DNA of 64,000 nt from Deltaproteobacteria bacterium. GTDB taxonomy: Bacteria > Myxococcota_A > Polyangia > Polyangiales > JADJMO01. The position numbers were made by a program, and so were the translations under genes. The notes below the pieces were generated by a model that was given only the letters and a program-made list of their open reading frames with translations, was not told the DNA's origin and searched no databases. How positions within the stretch are numbered: position 1 is the stretch's first letter; every line of letters starts with the position of its first letter. Location: positions 1-64,000 of the forward strand of contig JANYDK010000025.1 in the NCBI GenBank assembly GCA_025363655.1, written 5' to 3'. Positions 3,631 to 38,638 of the stretch are shown here, piece by piece.

Positions 3631-4980
<1,350 letters not shown>

Positions 4981-4995
4981 TTTTCAGCGTGATTT

Positions 4996-5316
4996 TCAGC
5001 GCGTTCGAGCCAAGTCAGCCCTGACCCGGCCCTCGAGGGCGACACGTAGTCGTGCGTGGATCTGCTCGGTGACCTTCCCCGCACGCATCGCCGCGGCGAC
5101 GCCGATCGCGAGGAGCACGGCTGCCACGAGAAAAACCGGGACCGTGAAGACGGGCGGCGGGATGATCGTCCAGTAGAGGATCCGTCGCGCGAGGTAGAGC
5201 CCATCGAAGAGCCCGAGCGCGAGCCCGGCCACGACGTAGCGCGCGCATCGATTCTTCGAGGCGCGATGGAGATCGACGAGCTCTTCGTCGGTGTGTCGTT
5301 CGAGATCGGTGCTCAT
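4996..5316 (-). CDS. Small two-helix membrane protein, unknown function
   Basis: A 106-residue protein with a polar, charged N-terminus (residues 1-26), two hydrophobic segments (about 27-45 and 54-77, the second around 'FTVPVFLVAAVLLAIG'), and an Arg-rich amphipathic tail (80-106). It is probably an inner-membrane protein with both termini on the same side. It is convergent with pepP, with only 15 bp between the stops. No family is recognised. Confidence 0.6.
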   Translation of the reverse strand: MSTDLERHTDEELVDLHRASKNRCARYVVAGLALGLFDGLYLARRILYWTIIPPPVFTVPVFLVAAVLLAIGVAAAMRAGKVTEQIHARLRVALEGRVRADLARTR

Positions 5317-5473
5317 GAGAGCCCGACGTCAGCATCGACCATGCCACGCGCGGAAGACGTGCGAACGATTCGATCAAACCACGATTTCATCGGGTAACTC
5401 ACCGCGTGCCTTGTCGCCTGCAACTGCGACCTCGATGGCATGCAACGTTGTGTCACCGTGTTTCCGGCGCCCT

Positions 5474-6076
5474 TCAGCTCGCTGACAGCTCCGCCGCGAT
5501 CCGCTTGCGGAGCCGCAAGAGCCGCGTCTTCACCCGCGAGACGCCGAGGCCACGCGCGCGGCTGTACTCGACCACGCCCATCGGTCCGAGCACGCACTGC
5601 TCGAAGATGTCGAGGTCTTCCCCGCGCGAGCTCGCCAGCACTTTGCCGACGAGCGCCTGCGTCTCGGCGCCGATGAGCGCGTCCTCGGGATCGGGCTCCT
5701 CGGTCTCGACCTCCGGGGGGACGAGCATCGCTTCGAAGCGCGGTCCGACGTGGCGGGCGACGCGACGCACGTACATTCGGCAACAGTTGAGGAGGATGCT
5801 GAAGAGCCAGGTGGTGATCGCCGCGCGGTCCTCGAATCGATCGGCGTGGCAGGCCGCGAGGATCAGCGCCTCTTGCACGCACTCCTCGGCGTCGGCGTCG
5901 TTGCCGAGGAAGGCCCGCGCCTTGTCGTGCAGCCGACGGCGGAGGGCCGGATCGTCGATCGCGCGAAGCACGCGAGTTTTTCCGCTTCCGACGCTTCCGA
6001 CGCTGCGCCGACGCTCATGCGTCTCCGACACTTCGGAATCCGGTGAGTACTCACTCATTAAACGTTCGGTCAGCAT
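5474..6076 (-). CDS. ECF-type RNA polymerase sigma factor
   Basis: A 200-residue sigma-70-family factor. Region 2 lies at about residues 40-105 (ADAEECVQEALILAACHADRF and WLFSILLNCCRMYVRR). Region 4 is near the C-terminus (about 160-195; VVEYSRARGLGVSRVKTRLLRLRKR), with the DNA-contacting helix. The ATG at 6076 is chosen because GAGGAG lies about 8 nt upstream; the frame is open to 6199 but overlaps the end of tetR. No anti-sigma gene is adjacent. It lies 25 bp downstream of the TetR regulator on the same strand, probably in one operon. Codons 7-12 contain a palindrome almost identical to the one upstream of tetR. Confidence 0.85.
   Translation of the reverse strand: MLTERLMSEYSPDSEVSETHERRRSVGSVGSGKTRVLRAIDDPALRRRLHDKARAFLGNDADAEECVQEALILAACHADRFEDRAAITTWLFSILLNCCRMYVRRVARHVGPRFEAMLVPPEVETEEPDPEDALIGAETQALVGKVLASSRGEDLDIFEQCVLGPMGVVEYSRARGLGVSRVKTRLLRLRKRIAAELSAS
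6042..6059 (-). promoter_or_regulatory. Putative TetR operator copy inside the start of the sigma-factor gene
   Basis: On the minus strand this reads ATGAGTGAGTACTCAC, an inverted repeat with a 4-nt centre. It differs at one position from the 16-mer upstream of tetR at 6946-6961. It overlaps the first codons of the ECF sigma gene, where bound repressor could act as a roadblock or cover an internal promoter. That it is an operator is inferred from the match alone. Confidence 0.45.
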
Positions 6077-30825: not shown

Positions 30826-33357
30826 TCAGAGAGCGGCGAGCCTTTGCTGCGTGTGCTCGACGGTGATGCTTCGCGGGCGAGCTTGTCCCCAGCGCGCGAG
30901 CACGGTCTCGAAGGCGCGGCGGGCACCGTCGTGATCGCCCGACTCGGCGAGGACGACGCCGAGCCAGTACTGCGCGTGCACGTGCCGGAAGGGCTCGCGC
31001 GGATCGAGGCAGTGACGGGCTGCCGAGCGGAGGAGGGCACGCGCGCGGACGACGTCGCCGAGCGCCAAGAGCACGCGTCCCGCGTCGTAGCGATACATAC
31101 CGTATCTATGGAACCAGAACTTCTCCGGCGGAGGCAGGCGCGTCCGAGCTTCGACGAGCGCGTCGGGATCGTCGATGGCGACGGCGTAGGCGATGCCCCA
31201 GAAGATCGCCGGCGAGCCGTGACCGCGTTGCGAGAGCCACTCGAGCCTTCGTGAGCCGGCCTGCGCGGCGCTCAATTTTCCGGCGGCGCGACAGACGGCA
31301 GTGCAGAGCGGGGCGACGTCGCGTTGCAAGTAGTAGCCGGTCGTCCAACCCTCGCGTTTGGCCAGGTATTTCTCGGCGAGATCGAGGGCGTCTTCGCGGC
31401 GGCCTTCTTCGATCGCGAGGTTGACCAAGAGCTCGTAGGCGCGCCCCAGCACGTCGAAGCTCCAGTCTTCGCGCGACTCGCGAACGAGCCCGTCGAGACG
31501 GCCGCGCGCGGCGGCGAACTCGCCTTCGAGGATGGCGAGACGCGCCTCACCGAGGGCCTCTTCGACCTTCTCGCCGAGCGGGGAAATGGCCCACCAACGT
31601 CGCAGCACTTCGCGCGCCGAATCGGTCGGACGACCTTGCGCGAGGAGCGCGCCGGCACGAATCTGCAGCACCGCGCCCTGCTCGGGAGCGACGGCGAGCG
31701 CGCGCTTGGTCTCGGGGATGAGTTGATCGAGCTGCCCTGCCTCGGCGTAGACGATGACGCGCTCGTAGTAGCCGTCGCCACCCGAGGGGCTGAGCTCGAT
31801 GCAGCGATCGAGCGCGTCGAGCGCCTCGGCCGTGCGATCTTGACTGGCGAGCGCAGTGGCGAGCGTCTGGCAGGCGTCGGCGTATTCGGGATCGACGGCG
31901 ATGGCGCGACGCGCGTAACGCTCTTGCAACGCTGGATCTTCGCCGGCCGAGAGAAACCCGGCGATTTGCTGCAGCTCGGCGTCACCCGGGCGCGCGTCGG
32001 CGAGGGTGCCCATCCGCTTCCAGGTCTGTTCGACGTCGGGTGGATCGCTGAGGAAGAGCGGCTCGATGGCGTGGAGGAGGGCGCGATCGCGGGGAGAAAG
32101 ATCTTTGCGGACGGCGACCGCACGACGAAAGCCGGCGTTGGTCCCGGCCGACGTCAGGTGGGCGCCGAACGAGGCCGTGAGCACCCAACGCAGACGCGCG
32201 GCGGCCATGCGCGGATCGAGCTCGAGCGCGCGCTCGAAATGCGGGTGCGCGCCGTGCCAATCGGCGTCACGCATCGCCTCCAGCCCAGCCCGATACGCGA
32301 GGACCGCATCGCCGCTCGGTGACGCCGGCAGCGGCACGGAGAGCATCGGCAGCGGATGCGCGCCATCGTCGGCGGGAAGCGACAGCGGCGTCATCGGCGC
32401 CGACATCGGCGTCGAGAACGAGGGCACCGGCGTCGGCGGAATTTGTCCGCTGGTGAGCGAGACCGTCGCGGCGAGCGGCGCCACCGGTGGTTGGGAAGGG
32501 AGCGTGGCCATCGCGCGGCGAAGCGCATCGGCGAGCGCGTCCATGTCGGGGAAGCGCGCAGAGGGCTCTTTTTGCATCGCGCGGAGCACCACTGCGTCAA
32601 TGGTCTCGGAGACGTTCGCCCCTCGTTTGCTCGGCGGCGGCGGCAGCTCGGTGAGCACCGCGAGGAGCAGCGCGGGGAACTCTTGCGGCTTGCTCCACGG
32701 AAGAACGCCGGTGAGGAGCTCGTAGGCGAGGACGCCGAAGGAGAACTGATCGGCGCGACCGTCGAGCTCTTGCGAGCGCAGCTGCTCGGGCGCCATGTAC
32801 GCCGGAGTGCCCAAAATAGCGCCTGAAGTGTTGAGCGTGCCCATCTCGGCGGCGTTCGCCGAGTTGTTCCGCGCGATGCCGAAGTCGAGGACCTTGACCA
32901 TTCCGTCGTCGCGGACGACGACGTTGTCGGGCTTGATGTCGCGATGGACGAGGCCCGAGCGATGCGCGGCCGCGAGCGCGTGGGCGATGTCGAGGAGCCA
33001 ACCGAGTCGCTGTCCGACCGAGACGTCGGCGCGACCGAGGAGCGCACGCAACGATCGACCTGGCACGTACTCCATCACCAGGTACGAGACGCCGTTGGTC
33101 TCGCCGACGTCGTGCACCGCGACGACGTTGGGATGACTGAGCGCCGCCGCCGCACGTGCTTCTCGGAGGAGCCGTCGCACGTTGTCACCGGCAGTGCCGT
33201 CCTGCTGCGCCATGCTCGGATCGAGGTTCAACAGCTTGATGGCGACGGTGCGCTGCAGCTTCGGATCGTGCGCGCGGTAGACCTCACCCATGCCGCCGAC
33301 GCCGAGGAGCGCTTCGACGCGATAGCGATCGAACATCGCACCAGCAGGCAAGGGCAT
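30826..33357 (-). CDS. Ser/Thr protein kinase with C-terminal TPR region
   Basis: An 843-residue soluble kinase. The Hanks-type domain (about 11-280) has the Gly-rich loop GVGGMGEVY (19-27), invariant Lys41 (VAIK), catalytic HRDIKPDN (Asp140), DFG (158-160) and MAPE (188-191). A Pro/Ser/Thr linker (about 290-345) joins a long helical region with tetratricopeptide-like repeats (about 350-843, e.g. 'ALELDPRMAAARLRW', 'AIAVDPEYADACQTL', 'CIELSPSGGDGYYERV'). No transmembrane helix is visible. It probably phosphorylates proteins bound through the TPR part. The family is expanded in myxobacteria. Confidence 0.92.
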   Translation of the reverse strand: MPLPAGAMFDRYRVEALLGVGGMGEVYRAHDPKLQRTVAIKLLNLDPSMAQQDGTAGDNVRRLLREARAAAALSHPNVVAVHDVGETNGVSYLVMEYVPGRSLRALLGRADVSVGQRLGWLLDIAHALAAAHRSGLVHRDIKPDNVVVRDDGMVKVLDFGIARNNSANAAEMGTLNTSGAILGTPAYMAPEQLRSQELDGRADQFSFGVLAYELLTGVLPWSKPQEFPALLLAVLTELPPPPSKRGANVSETIDAVVLRAMQKEPSARFPDMDALADALRRAMATLPSQPPVAPLAATVSLTSGQIPPTPVPSFSTPMSAPMTPLSLPADDGAHPLPMLSVPLPASPSGDAVLAYRAGLEAMRDADWHGAHPHFERALELDPRMAAARLRWVLTASFGAHLTSAGTNAGFRRAVAVRKDLSPRDRALLHAIEPLFLSDPPDVEQTWKRMGTLADARPGDAELQQIAGFLSAGEDPALQERYARRAIAVDPEYADACQTLATALASQDRTAEALDALDRCIELSPSGGDGYYERVIVYAEAGQLDQLIPETKRALAVAPEQGAVLQIRAGALLAQGRPTDSAREVLRRWWAISPLGEKVEEALGEARLAILEGEFAAARGRLDGLVRESREDWSFDVLGRAYELLVNLAIEEGRREDALDLAEKYLAKREGWTTGYYLQRDVAPLCTAVCRAAGKLSAAQAGSRRLEWLSQRGHGSPAIFWGIAYAVAIDDPDALVEARTRLPPPEKFWFHRYGMYRYDAGRVLLALGDVVRARALLRSAARHCLDPREPFRHVHAQYWLGVVLAESGDHDGARRAFETVLARWGQARPRSITVEHTQQRLAAL

Positions 33358-35207: not shown

Positions 35208-36518
35208 ATGCAGATGGGCGCACCGTTCGATCCTCTGACGCCCGAAGAGCGGGCCGCCGAACTCGCGCGGAGTCGTCCGCGGTTGCTCCCGATCGCGCCG
35301 CACGCCGGTCCGTCGCTGCGTCGTCTGCCCCTCGCCGAAGAGTCGCGCGCCATCGACAAGAAGACCCGACCCATCTACGCGGTGTGGGAAATCACGCTCC
35401 GTTGTGATCTCGCGTGTCGTCATTGCGGCTCCCGCGCCGGTCACGAGCGGCCCGAGGAGCTGACCACCGCCGAGTGCCTCGACCTCGTCGATCAGATGGC
35501 CGACCTCGGGGTCAAAGAGGTCACGCTCATCGGCGGCGAGGCCTACCTGCGCGAAGATTGGCTCGAGATCGTCCGCGCGATTCGTCGCCGAGGGATGGCC
35601 GCTACCACCACCTCGGGCGGTCGTGGGCTCACCCGTGAACGCATCGCCGCCGCGAAGGAAGCCGGCCTACAAGGCGCGAGCATCTCGATCGACGGCGACG
35701 AAATCGTGCACGATCGTCTCCGCGGCGTGCCTGGCTCGTATCGCGCCGCCGTCGACGCGATGCGCTTCCTCCGCGAGGCCGGTCTTCGCGTCTCGTGCAA
35801 CAGCCAAATCAATCGCCTGTCCATCCCGCACCTCCCCCACATCCTCGAGATGATGGGAGAAAATGGCGTCAAAGCCTGGCAAATTCAGCTCACGGTGCCG
35901 ATGGGGCGCGCCGCCGACGAGCCCGACATCCTCGTTCAACCGTACGACCTGCTCGACGTCTTCCCGATGCTCGTGAAGCTGCGTGAGCGCTGCACCGAGC
36001 TCGGCATTCGCATGTTCCCCGGCAACAACGTCGGTTACTTCGGGCCCCACGAGAGCCTCCTTCGCGGTCATCACTACCGTGGTCACGGCGGCTCGTGCGG
36101 GGCCGGACGTGCGACGCTCGGCATCGAGGCCGACGGCGCGATCAAGGGCTGCCCTTCGCTGCCGACCGCGGCGTGGACCGGCGGCAACATCCGCGACGCC
36201 AAGCTCGTCGACATTTGGGAGCGCGCCGAGCCGCTTCGTTACACGCGCGATCGCACGCGCGAAGATCTCTGGGGCTACTGCAAGACTTGCTACTACGCCG
36301 ACGAGTGCCAGGCGGGGTGCACGTGGACGAGCTTCGTCTACTTCGGCAAGGCCGGAAACAACCCCTTCTGTCATCACCGCGCGCTCGAAATGCAGCGCGC
36401 CGGCAAGCGCGAGCGCGTGCACCGCGTGCAAGCCGCGCCCGGTCAGCCGTTCGACTTCGGGCTCTTCGAGATTGTGGTGGAAGACGCGAAAGACGCGAAC
36501 GAGGAGAAAGGCGCTTAA
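35208..36518 (+). CDS. Radical SAM/SPASM-domain enzyme (candidate peptide maturase)
   Basis: A 436-residue protein from the ATG at 35208. The radical SAM cluster motif is Cys66, Cys70, Cys73 (CDLACRHC), followed by the SAM-binding GGEAYLRED at 109-117. The C-terminal SPASM domain has Cys297, Cys315, Cys358, Cys361, Cys367, Cys371 and Cys388. The spacing CX2CX5CX3CX16C fits the auxiliary Fe-S cluster signature of peptide-modifying enzymes. Two small paralogous genes follow at 4 bp and 10 bp spacing and are its likely partners or substrates. No RRE/PqqD-like domain is visible in it. The reaction is not predicted. The frame is open to 35103, but that part lies across the divergent promoter region. 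Confidence 0.85.
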   Translation: MQMGAPFDPLTPEERAAELARSRPRLLPIAPHAGPSLRRLPLAEESRAIDKKTRPIYAVWEITLRCDLACRHCGSRAGHERPEELTTAECLDLVDQMADLGVKEVTLIGGEAYLREDWLEIVRAIRRRGMAATTTSGGRGLTRERIAAAKEAGLQGASISIDGDEIVHDRLRGVPGSYRAAVDAMRFLREAGLRVSCNSQINRLSIPHLPHILEMMGENGVKAWQIQLTVPMGRAADEPDILVQPYDLLDVFPMLVKLRERCTELGIRMFPGNNVGYFGPHESLLRGHHYRGHGGSCGAGRATLGIEADGAIKGCPSLPTAAWTGGNIRDAKLVDIWERAEPLRYTRDRTREDLWGYCKTCYYADECQAGCTWTSFVYFGKAGNNPFCHHRALEMQRAGKRERVHRVQAAPGQPFDFGLFEIVVEDAKDANEEKGA

Positions 36519-36521
36519 GCG

Positions 36522-36971
36522 ATGAAGGCTCACTTTGCACCCTGTGAATCGTGTGGACGACACATCCGCGTCTCCGAGGGCAAGTGCCCGTTCTGCGACG
36601 CGACGACGTCGATGTCATTTCGGTCGGCCGCGGCACCTCTGCCGCCGAGCAAGCGACTGAGTCGTGCTGCGCTGCTCGTCTTCGGTGCGGCGGCCGCATC
36701 GACGAGCGCGTGCTCATCGTCATCGGACACCACCGGCTCGACCACCGACACTGGCGTCGACACTGGATTTCCCGTCGTCGATGCAGCGTACGGCGGACCT
36801 CCCGACACCGGCGTGAAAGACATCGGGCCCGCCGATACCGGGATTCCCAGCGTCGATGCGGCGTACGGCGGACCTCCCGACACGGGGACTCCCGACAGCG
36901 GGCCTGGCGACACCGCCGACACTTCACCGACGCCGGCCTATGGTCTCCCGCCGAGCGACACAGGAGGCTGA
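36522..36971 (+). CDS. Zinc-ribbon small lipoprotein-like protein with YGGPPDTG repeats (candidate radical SAM substrate 1)
   Basis: A 149-residue protein starting 4 bp after the radical SAM stop. A zinc ribbon (Cys8, Cys11, Cys22, Cys25) is followed by a hydrophobic segment (about 48-62) ending in a lipobox-like TSAC (Cys64) and SSSSDT. The C-terminal half is Thr/Asp/Gly/Pro-rich with three motifs: VDAAYGGPPDTG at about 86-97 and 111-122, and AYGLPPSDTGG at 139-149. It is paralogous to the next gene. An N-terminal ribbon before a lipoprotein-type signal is unusual. It may be a modified, membrane-anchored peptide; a purely structural lipoprotein is the alternative. Confidence 0.7.
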   Translation: MKAHFAPCESCGRHIRVSEGKCPFCDATTSMSFRSAAAPLPPSKRLSRAALLVFGAAAASTSACSSSSDTTGSTTDTGVDTGFPVVDAAYGGPPDTGVKDIGPADTGIPSVDAAYGGPPDTGTPDSGPGDTADTSPTPAYGLPPSDTGG

Positions 36972-36980
36972 GACAGAACC

Positions 36981-37373
36981 ATGAAACCGCACTTCGCGCC
37001 TTGTGAAGGTTGTGGACGACACATCCGCGTCTCCGAAGGAGCGTGCCCCTTCTGCGACGTCGCGACGTCCGCTGAATTCAGGGCGACGGCTCCGCCCACG
37101 CCGCTTCCTCGCGGTCTGAGCCGCGCGGCGATCTTTGCGATCGGCGCTGCGGCGACGGTCGCTGGCGTCGCTTGCAGCAGCTCGTCGGACACGACCTCCA
37201 CGCCTGTCTATGGAGCGCCGGTGATGGACACCGGCACTGCCGAGACCACCGACACCGCAGCACCCAGCGACGGCGGCGTCGATGGCGACACGCTCGACAC
37301 CGGCGGCTCGATGCCGCTCTACGGCGGACCGTTCGACACCGGTTCGACTCCCGACACCAGCCATGGCGGCTGA
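36981..37373 (+). CDS. Zinc-ribbon small lipoprotein-like protein, paralogue (candidate radical SAM substrate 2)
   Basis: A 130-residue protein starting 10 bp after the stop of its paralogue. The first 26 residues are nearly identical to it (MKPHFAPCEGCGRHIRVSEG against MKAHFAPCESCGRHIRVSEG), with Cys8, Cys11, Cys22 and Cys25. A hydrophobic segment ends at GVAC (Cys65) and SSSSDTT. The tail differs but keeps two related motifs, VYGAPVMDTG (76-85) and LYGGPFDTG (113-121). The leader is therefore more conserved than the tail, as expected for precursor peptides sharing one enzyme. Function is inferred from context only. Confidence 0.68.
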   Translation: MKPHFAPCEGCGRHIRVSEGACPFCDVATSAEFRATAPPTPLPRGLSRAAIFAIGAAATVAGVACSSSSDTTSTPVYGAPVMDTGTAETTDTAAPSDGGVDGDTLDTGGSMPLYGGPFDTGSTPDTSHGG

Positions 37374-37501: not shown

Positions 37502-38638
37502 ATGTCGCGACGCACGTCGAGCTCGAGGGCTCTGGGCTGCATCCTCTTCGTGAGCGTCGCAGCATGCAGCAGCGGTAGCTCCAGCGGCGACGGCGCCGAC
37601 GGCGGGGGCAGCAGCGACACCGGCAGCGCGCCTGCCGACACCACGCCTCTGCCCGATCCCGCAGCCGGCCCCGCAGCGGGAAATCCCGATGGAAAGTGCG
37701 AGGTGCCGGCCGACGCGCAGCCCGAGGACGTCTCGGCGCCGCGCACCGTCGTCGGCACCGGCACGCCTACGAGTTGCACTGGCGATGCCTTCGTCGCCGC
37801 GGTCGCCAAGGGTGGCGTCATCACGTTCGACTGCGGTCCTGACCCAGTCACCATCACGCTCACGCAGACGGCGAAGATCGTGAACGACACCGGCCCCAAG
37901 ATCGTCATCGACGGCGGCAACAAGGTGACGCTGAGCGGCGGCGGGAAGGTACGCATCCTCTACCAGAACACCTGCGACGAAAAACAGAAGTGGACCACGT
38001 CGCACTGCAACAACCAGGACACGCCGGCGTTGACGGTGCAGAACCTCACGTTCAGCGGCGGCAGCTCGAAGGGCGAGAAGGCGGACGGCGGCGGAGGCGG
38101 AGCGATCTTCGTTCGCGGCGGACGCTTCAAGGTCCTCAACAGTCGCTTCTTCGACAACGTCTGCGACGACGCCGGGCCCGACGTCGGTGGCGCAGCGGTG
38201 CGCGTGCTCGATCAGTCGAACGGCGCGCCCGTCTACGTCGTGCACAGCACCTTCGGCGGCAAGCCCGGCTATGGCAACGTCTGCTCCAACGGCGGCGGGC
38301 TCAGCAGCATCGGCGTTTCGTACAGCGTCATCAACAGCCTCTTCACCGACAACCAGGCCATCGGTCACGGCGCCAACCCGGCCAAGTCGGGCACCACCGG
38401 CGGCGGCAGCGGCGGCGCGATCTACAACGACGGCAACACGTTCACGCTCACGCTCTGCGGCGATCGTCTCGAGAACAACCATGCCAATGAAGGCGGCGGA
38501 GCAATCTTTTTCGTCAGCAACGATCGCTCGGGGAGCCTCGTCATCAAAGACTCGGTGCTCACCAACAACAAAGCGACGGCTTCGAAACCAAGGGATTTCC
38601 CGGGATTTTCGTGCAAGCGAAGGGGGATCCGACGGTGA
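37502..38638 (+). CDS. Parallel-beta-helix lipoprotein, probably frameshifted near its C-terminus
   Basis: A lipoprotein with lipobox Cys22 (SVAAC) and a Gly/Ser/Asp linker. A right-handed beta-helix-like domain (about 75-355) has repeats rich in Asn, Gly and 'GGAIF', 'GGAIY' and 'GGAIFFV' turns. The current frame ends at 38638 in an Arg-rich tail (FSCKRRGIRR). The +1 frame from about 38580 reads GFETKGFPGIFVQAKGDP and stops at 38656-38658, a much better C-terminus. One G appears to be missing in the GG at 38578-38579. It is either a sequencing/assembly error or a real mutation. Confidence 0.7.
   Translation: MSRRTSSSRALGCILFVSVAACSSGSSSGDGADGGGSSDTGSAPADTTPLPDPAAGPAAGNPDGKCEVPADAQPEDVSAPRTVVGTGTPTSCTGDAFVAAVAKGGVITFDCGPDPVTITLTQTAKIVNDTGPKIVIDGGNKVTLSGGGKVRILYQNTCDEKQKWTTSHCNNQDTPALTVQNLTFSGGSSKGEKADGGGGGAIFVRGGRFKVLNSRFFDNVCDDAGPDVGGAAVRVLDQSNGAPVYVVHSTFGGKPGYGNVCSNGGGLSSIGVSYSVINSLFTDNQAIGHGANPAKSGTTGGGSGGAIYNDGNTFTLTLCGDRLENNHANEGGGAIFFVSNDRSGSLVIKDSVLTNNKATASKPRDFPGFSCKRRGIRR

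Follow-up and report, generated by a model that had tools for sequence, protein, structure and literature searches.

The three genes at positions 35208-37373 of the window, i.e., the whole 64,000-nucleotide stretch of DNA that was analyzed, most probably constitute a splicease-type protein-editing system. Judging from sequence comparisons, two small proteins would dock on a radical SAM/SPASM enzyme through their zinc ribbons, lose tyramine at Tyr-Gly (YG) motifs in their tails, and be exported as lipoproteins. The original prediction had regarded the trio as a candidate new peptide-modification system. With regard to the chemistry, this was not upheld because the enzyme is grouped with maturases of the PlpX/nif11_3 and GDL-motif types and XYG, the splicease motif, is present in the tails; if confirmed, the chemistry is already known. 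The features of the trio are listed below.

35208-36518, + strand: radical SAM/SPASM maturase, 436 aa, predicted to be splicease-like (Pfam/NCBIfam, cysteine alignment, tree, and AlphaFold model)
36502-36506, + strand: AGGAG, likely ribosome site for small gene 1 (sequence)
36522-36971, + strand: small protein 1, 149 aa, with zinc ribbon, signal-like stretch, and Asp/Gly/Ser tail containing three YG
36543-36596, + strand: zinc ribbon of protein 1 (Cys8, 11, 22, 25), CESCGRHIRVSEGKCPFC, predicted docking leader
36711-36713, + strand: lipobox-like Cys64 of protein 1 (STSAC)
36789-36794, + strand: YG site 1 of protein 1 (VDAAYGGPPD), motif conserved in the family
36864-36869, + strand: YG site 2 of protein 1 (VDAAYGGPPD)
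36939-36944, + strand: YG site 3 of protein 1 (PTPAYGLPPS)
36962-36967, + strand: AGGAGG, likely ribosome site for small gene 2 (sequence)
36981-37373, + strand: small protein 2 of 130 aa, a paralogue of protein 1 carrying two YG
37002-37055, + strand: zinc ribbon of protein 2 (alignment), CEGCGRHIRVSEGACPFC
37173-37175, + strand: lipobox-like Cys65 of protein 2 (AGVAC)
37209-37214, + strand: YG site 1 of protein 2 (STPVYGAPVM)
37320-37325, + strand: YG site 2 of protein 2 (SMPLYGGPFD)

The 436-residue enzyme contained the CX3CX2C motif (Cys66/70/73) and seven SPASM cysteines (Cys 297, 315, 358, 361, 367, 371, and 388), as originally described with the right coordinates, and all 3 + 7 cysteines were invariant when 26 homologues were aligned. 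Pfam matches were obtained for Radical_SAM (E 1.7e-21) and SPASM (E 1.2e-6). The top NCBIfam models were TIGR04103 (nif11-class maturase 3, which we take to be the same as IPR026482) with 520 bits and TIGR03913 (GDL-motif maturase) with 471 bits. Since the cut-offs of these families are 725 and 592 bits, respectively, the enzyme is near both families and a member of neither. The NCBIfam models of PQQ- and mycofactocin-like enzymes scored far lower, and chemistry of that kind was rejected. The AlphaFold model of the enzyme had a mean pLDDT of 81.6, and its best solved matches were SkfB, PqqE, SuiB, and anSME. Structure searches returned generic SPASM relatives only, and matching by sequence led to no splicease structure. 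The genome from which the window was taken carried 6 such enzymes and 14 small-protein matches, the window trio included.

The two small genes lie directly behind the enzyme gene on the same strand, preceded by 3 (gene 1) and 9 (gene 2) untranslated bases, and each has an AGGAG-type ribosome site. Their products were 56% identical overall and 66% identical across the zinc-ribbon halves, which agrees with the paralogous pair described originally. The ribbon had likewise been singled out as the conserved N-terminus, and its four Cys, His14, and Pro23 were invariant in 26 homologues. In Pfam, both small proteins gave weak zinc-ribbon matches only. Neither a Nif11 or nitrile-hydratase-like leader nor DUF1843 was matched, and an Azospirillum control peptide did match DUF1843. 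In the lipoboxes of the window proteins (TSAC and GVAC), position -3 is not occupied by the usual Leu/Ile/Val, and the hydrophobic stretch is preceded by an unusually long n-region of approximately 45 residues. Neither protein has a Cys beyond the lipobox Cys; maturation of the sactipeptide or ranthipeptide type was rejected because the tails are devoid of core Cys. Near the trio, a separate lipoprotein-like gene with a Ser/Asp/Gly-rich N-terminus and no Pfam match lies just behind it (37502-38635, + strand) and is probably unrelated. At 30826-33357 (- strand), the sequence reads as a serine/threonine kinase-like protein whose C-terminal half is TPR-like; such kinase-TPR proteins are common in Myxococcota.

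Glycine followed 5/5 tail tyrosines of the window proteins, a signature that the original prediction had overlooked. In protein 1, the YG tyrosines (Y90, Y115, and Y140) were spaced by exactly 25 residues. For comparison across the family, 91 distinct zinc-ribbon small proteins were gathered from loci around related enzymes and around paralogues. They followed the pattern C-x2-C-x-RH-x(n)-CPFC, then a hydrophobic stretch, a Cys (89/91, mostly [GA]C), and a variable tail, which would fit the lipoprotein-like anchor suggested before; by a loose pattern, 67/91 were lipobox-like. At least one YG was present in 90/91 of the small proteins, with the site consensus [PA]-x-Y-G-[AGL]-P-P. Glycine followed 211 of the 229 tail tyrosines, while shuffled tails gave a mean of 37 and a maximum of 57 over 2000 rounds. 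YG is thus nearly the sole use of Tyr in the tails, in line with the earlier proposal that the tail is the part predicted to be modified. In a comparison set of 56 further lipoprotein-like ORFs from these loci, YG accounted for 19% of Tyr; this value is an upper bound because the set is rough and still contains a few family members whose frames start at an internal Met. Moreover, YG was kept in the Pro/Gln-rich and otherwise unlike tails of paralogues located far from any enzyme gene. That the 91 homologues share the ribbon, YG, and a hydrophobic stretch terminated by [GAS]C is more than chance.

To place the enzyme, a tree of 114 enzymes was built with FastTree, and the named loci were taken from one scan of genome contigs. 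Clade A was nif11_3-like and contained enzymes of cyanobacteria, Thiothrix, Frankia, Eremiobacterota, Acanthopleuribacter, and one Archangium. Clade B contained the myxobacterial zinc-ribbon systems, including the window enzyme, and the GDL maturases. The two clades were sisters with a local support of 91 each, and the relative order of A and B has no more than 91% local support. Among the named loci, the one nearest to the window enzyme, with 77% identity, was that of an uncultured Myxococcales bin (L171). A Nostoc control enzyme scored 853 bits against TIGR04103, and the window enzyme was 54% identical to it. The Nostoc enzyme has a Nif11 precursor ending in ALYGLPPELF. In cyanobacterial Nif11-type cores, YG was present in 57/60 and involved 95/145 tyrosines (shuffle mean, 11). 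Accordingly, the motif of the window tails is also the motif of clade A substrates.

PlpX (IPR026482) and PlpY excise tyramine from Xaa-Tyr-Gly (loss of C8H9NO) and rejoin the chain as an alpha-keto amide (PMC11002830, PMC10533398). The computed monoisotopic mass of C8H9NO was 135.068, and the published figure is 135.0757. Splice tags including PIRPLYGLPI are functional, the RiPP leader being dispensable there (PMC10533398), several splice sites in a single precursor are possible (PMC10373908), and spliceotide products have been described as protease inhibitors (PMC11117315). The window trio shares with the PlpXY systems a SPASM radical SAM enzyme (approximately 53-54% identical to members of TIGR04103 / IPR026482), substrates with several x-Y-G-[LVGA]-P motifs, and one to three precursor genes adjoining the enzyme gene. 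However, it differs in that the enzyme scores under the family cut-off and is not accompanied by PlpY. PlpY-like genes occurred in 51 clade A loci, of which practically all were from cyanobacteria, whereas 20 other clade A loci lacked them; no PlpY homologue was detected near the trio, in any clade B locus, or in the non-cyanobacterial clade A loci. In addition, the predicted leader of the window proteins is a zinc ribbon with a signal peptide instead of a Nif11 or nitrile-hydratase-like domain, and the substrates of the window family are predicted lipoproteins, many of them unlinked, with up to 27 per genome and CYG in one subclade.

At clade A loci of Eremiobacterota, Frankia, and Armatimonadetes, putative precursors were noted that carry tandem PVYGAPMPSNPF or APVYGGPP motifs and have no evident leader of the Nif11 type (L146 3401-3940; L153 350-718; L164 3216-3992; L156 983-1534). 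Thus, leader types vary widely across the enzyme family. In Archangium violaceum, a clade A enzyme was accompanied by a 60-residue GG-type precursor carrying ADYGLPPP (L154 3759-3941).

The co-occurrence of enzyme and small proteins was determined at two levels. Among 57 genomes of the order, where enzyme presence was defined as a strong match (E below 1e-110) and small proteins were detected by profile, the small-protein profile was found in 31/34 enzyme-bearing and 0/23 enzyme-free genomes (Fisher p 5e-13). Across the phylum (189 genomes), small proteins were present in 45/66 genomes with the enzyme and 1/123 without it (p 5e-26), the sole enzyme-free case being a weak match. These p-values overstate independence because the genomes are related; the absence of small proteins from enzyme-free genomes is not inflated. 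The pairing of enzyme and substrate proposed originally is supported by this co-occurrence. Small proteins lacking a radical SAM neighbour, which had been named as evidence against the pairing, were frequent at the locus level, with many unlinked paralogues, but not at the genome level. As many as 27, 26, and 23 small proteins were counted in single genomes, most of them unlinked to the enzyme gene, and the unlinked paralogues look like substrates acted on in trans. No third conserved neighbour gene was found in the loci, where the only candidates were chance links and reading frames shadowing the small genes; this fits leader removal via the house-keeping lipoprotein pathway.

The zinc ribbon was also found on enzymes. 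In the GDL maturases of Azospirillum and Aureibacter (L090, L091, and L093), a ribbon of the same kind, CRACNQYVWPHETDCPHC, is located at the C-terminus of the enzyme, and in the Tropicibacter enzyme (L092), a ribbon, CPDCGRHVLLRDQVEDTRCPFC, is located at the N-terminus. The GDL maturases (TIGR03913, with DUF1843 peptides) belong to clade B, and the DUF1843 peptides of Azospirillum and Aureibacter have YG, YM, or YA near the N-terminus, several GDL peptides having YG (MLYGGAM and KPYGVAI). In contrast to the window branch, where the ribbon is on the substrate, it is fused to the enzyme in these systems; the DUF1843 substrates have no lipobox, some GDL peptides have Tyr without Gly, and the window enzyme falls under the TIGR03913 cut-off (471 < 592). 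From these sequences, we infer that the ribbon may be a docking module standing in for the function of PlpY or an RRE.

In one group of ribbon proteins, encoded beside branches of clade B, YG follows the lipobox Cys directly or after one residue (CYG), as in LSACYGVAGPP, LAACYGLPYED, and LMACYGGPPRP. Such proteins are encoded at L038, L043, and L065, at most loci of L070-L082, and at L180, which is unlinked. In these proteins, the same chemistry, if it applies, would edit the lipid-bearing Cys itself. The CYG placement is the strangest part of the data. The CYG proteins are otherwise unlike one another and adjoin a separate enzyme branch, and some have MopE-like DLDGDGYC repeats.

Other explanations of the trio were also weighed. 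It is unlikely that the enzyme performs another radical reaction at the YG tyrosine, such as formation of a Tyr-based cyclophane or an ether cross-link, oxidation, or backbone cleavage without rejoining. SPASM enzymes carry out many Tyr-directed reactions (PQQ and mycofactocin), the nearest solved structures given above include no splicease, and we know of no clade B enzyme that has been experimentally assayed. On the other hand, an invariant Gly at +1 combined with a free -1 residue is what characterizes splicease sites, and PlpX-type enzymes are among the members of the sister clade, in which the same motif occurs. Triceptide maturases are likewise SPASM radical SAM enzymes working on aromatic residues in repeated short motifs; however, a three-residue cyclophane (Y-G-x) needs the beta carbon of the third residue, and in the window family this residue (+2) was Gly at a quarter of the sites (53/211). 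Triceptide (cyclophane) maturation was thus rejected.

A modification of the zinc ribbon itself, e.g., of its Cys, or a role of the small proteins as partners of the enzyme, with YG serving something else, was considered very improbable. Conservation within the small proteins is highest in the ribbon, and the fusion of such a ribbon to the GDL maturases indicates that it can be an enzyme accessory, but neither point explains why YG persists in otherwise unrelated tails, including those of unlinked paralogues and of the CYG subclade. The least probable explanation is that ordinary lipoproteins adjoin a radical SAM gene by chance and are not modified. Asp/Gly/Ser-rich lipoproteins are common in Myxococcota and many paralogues are not adjacent to the enzyme, both of which would agree with chance; the genome-level tie to the enzyme (31/34 vs 0/23 and 45/66 vs 1/123) argues against it.

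Under the preferred splicease-type reading, the pre-lipoprotein would dock on the radical SAM/SPASM enzyme with its N-terminal zinc ribbon as the leader, and tyramine would be cut out at each YG, leaving ketoamides at the three sites of protein 1 and the two of protein 2. The edited protein would then be exported by Sec, and signal peptidase II would cleave before the lipobox Cys, thereby discarding the zinc-ribbon leader. The tail bearing the ketoamides would stay anchored in the membrane, and the same enzyme would also serve the unlinked paralogues in trans. As in bacterial lipoproteins processed by Lgt/LspA, a hydrophobic stretch is followed by [GAS]C in this family (89/91); the differences are the long zinc-ribbon n-region and the predicted backbone editing before export. 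Against this reading speak the missing PlpY, the scores under both family cut-offs, the atypical lipoboxes with their long n-region, and the 91% support for the order of the clades. Given the XYG in the tails and the grouping of the enzyme with the GDL and PlpX/nif11_3 maturases, the expected shift is -135.07 Da for each of the three YG sites of protein 1 and the two of protein 2, and not the -2 Da named originally. This prediction is sharp and cheaply testable. By analogy with the protease inhibition by spliceotides, one guess for the function is a surface-bound protease inhibitor or a reactive cross-linker.

On a wider scale, the chances appear evenly balanced that such editing operates throughout Myxococcota, where one or a few ribbon-guided spliceases would convert x-Tyr-Gly to ketoamide in up to approximately 27 lipoproteins per genome, signal peptidase II would act as the leader peptidase, and the lipidated Cys of CYG would be edited in one subclade. 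If true, backbone splicing would modify many membrane-anchored proteins in a phylum, beyond small secreted peptides, and the ordinary lipoprotein pathway would take over export and leader removal. Reactive ketoamides displayed on the envelope could inhibit proteases or cross-link. Moreover, the zinc ribbon, which myxobacteria have on the substrate and GDL systems on the enzyme, would act in place of PlpY as a portable recognition module and be useful for labelling tags.

No description of this class of substrates, of the docking module, of so many unlinked substrates, or of CYG was found, and a literature search on zinc-ribbon or lipoprotein substrates, or on GDL peptides, gave nothing relevant; Scott et al. 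2022 may cover part of this. The title of that main splicease survey (Chem) reportedly speaks of peptides and proteins. According to PMC10533398, the survey lists 939 predicted systems.

Stray YG tags were also observed at one locus (L088, genome G027). The enzyme itself (4202-5530) ends in ...AEKYGAPPMRK, resembling a small-protein tail in a sister genome, and an unrelated neighbouring frame (5751-6035) also ends in KYGAPPMRK, with nearly the same DNA. From the sequence, this looks like deletion or recombination fusing a YG tag onto other genes.
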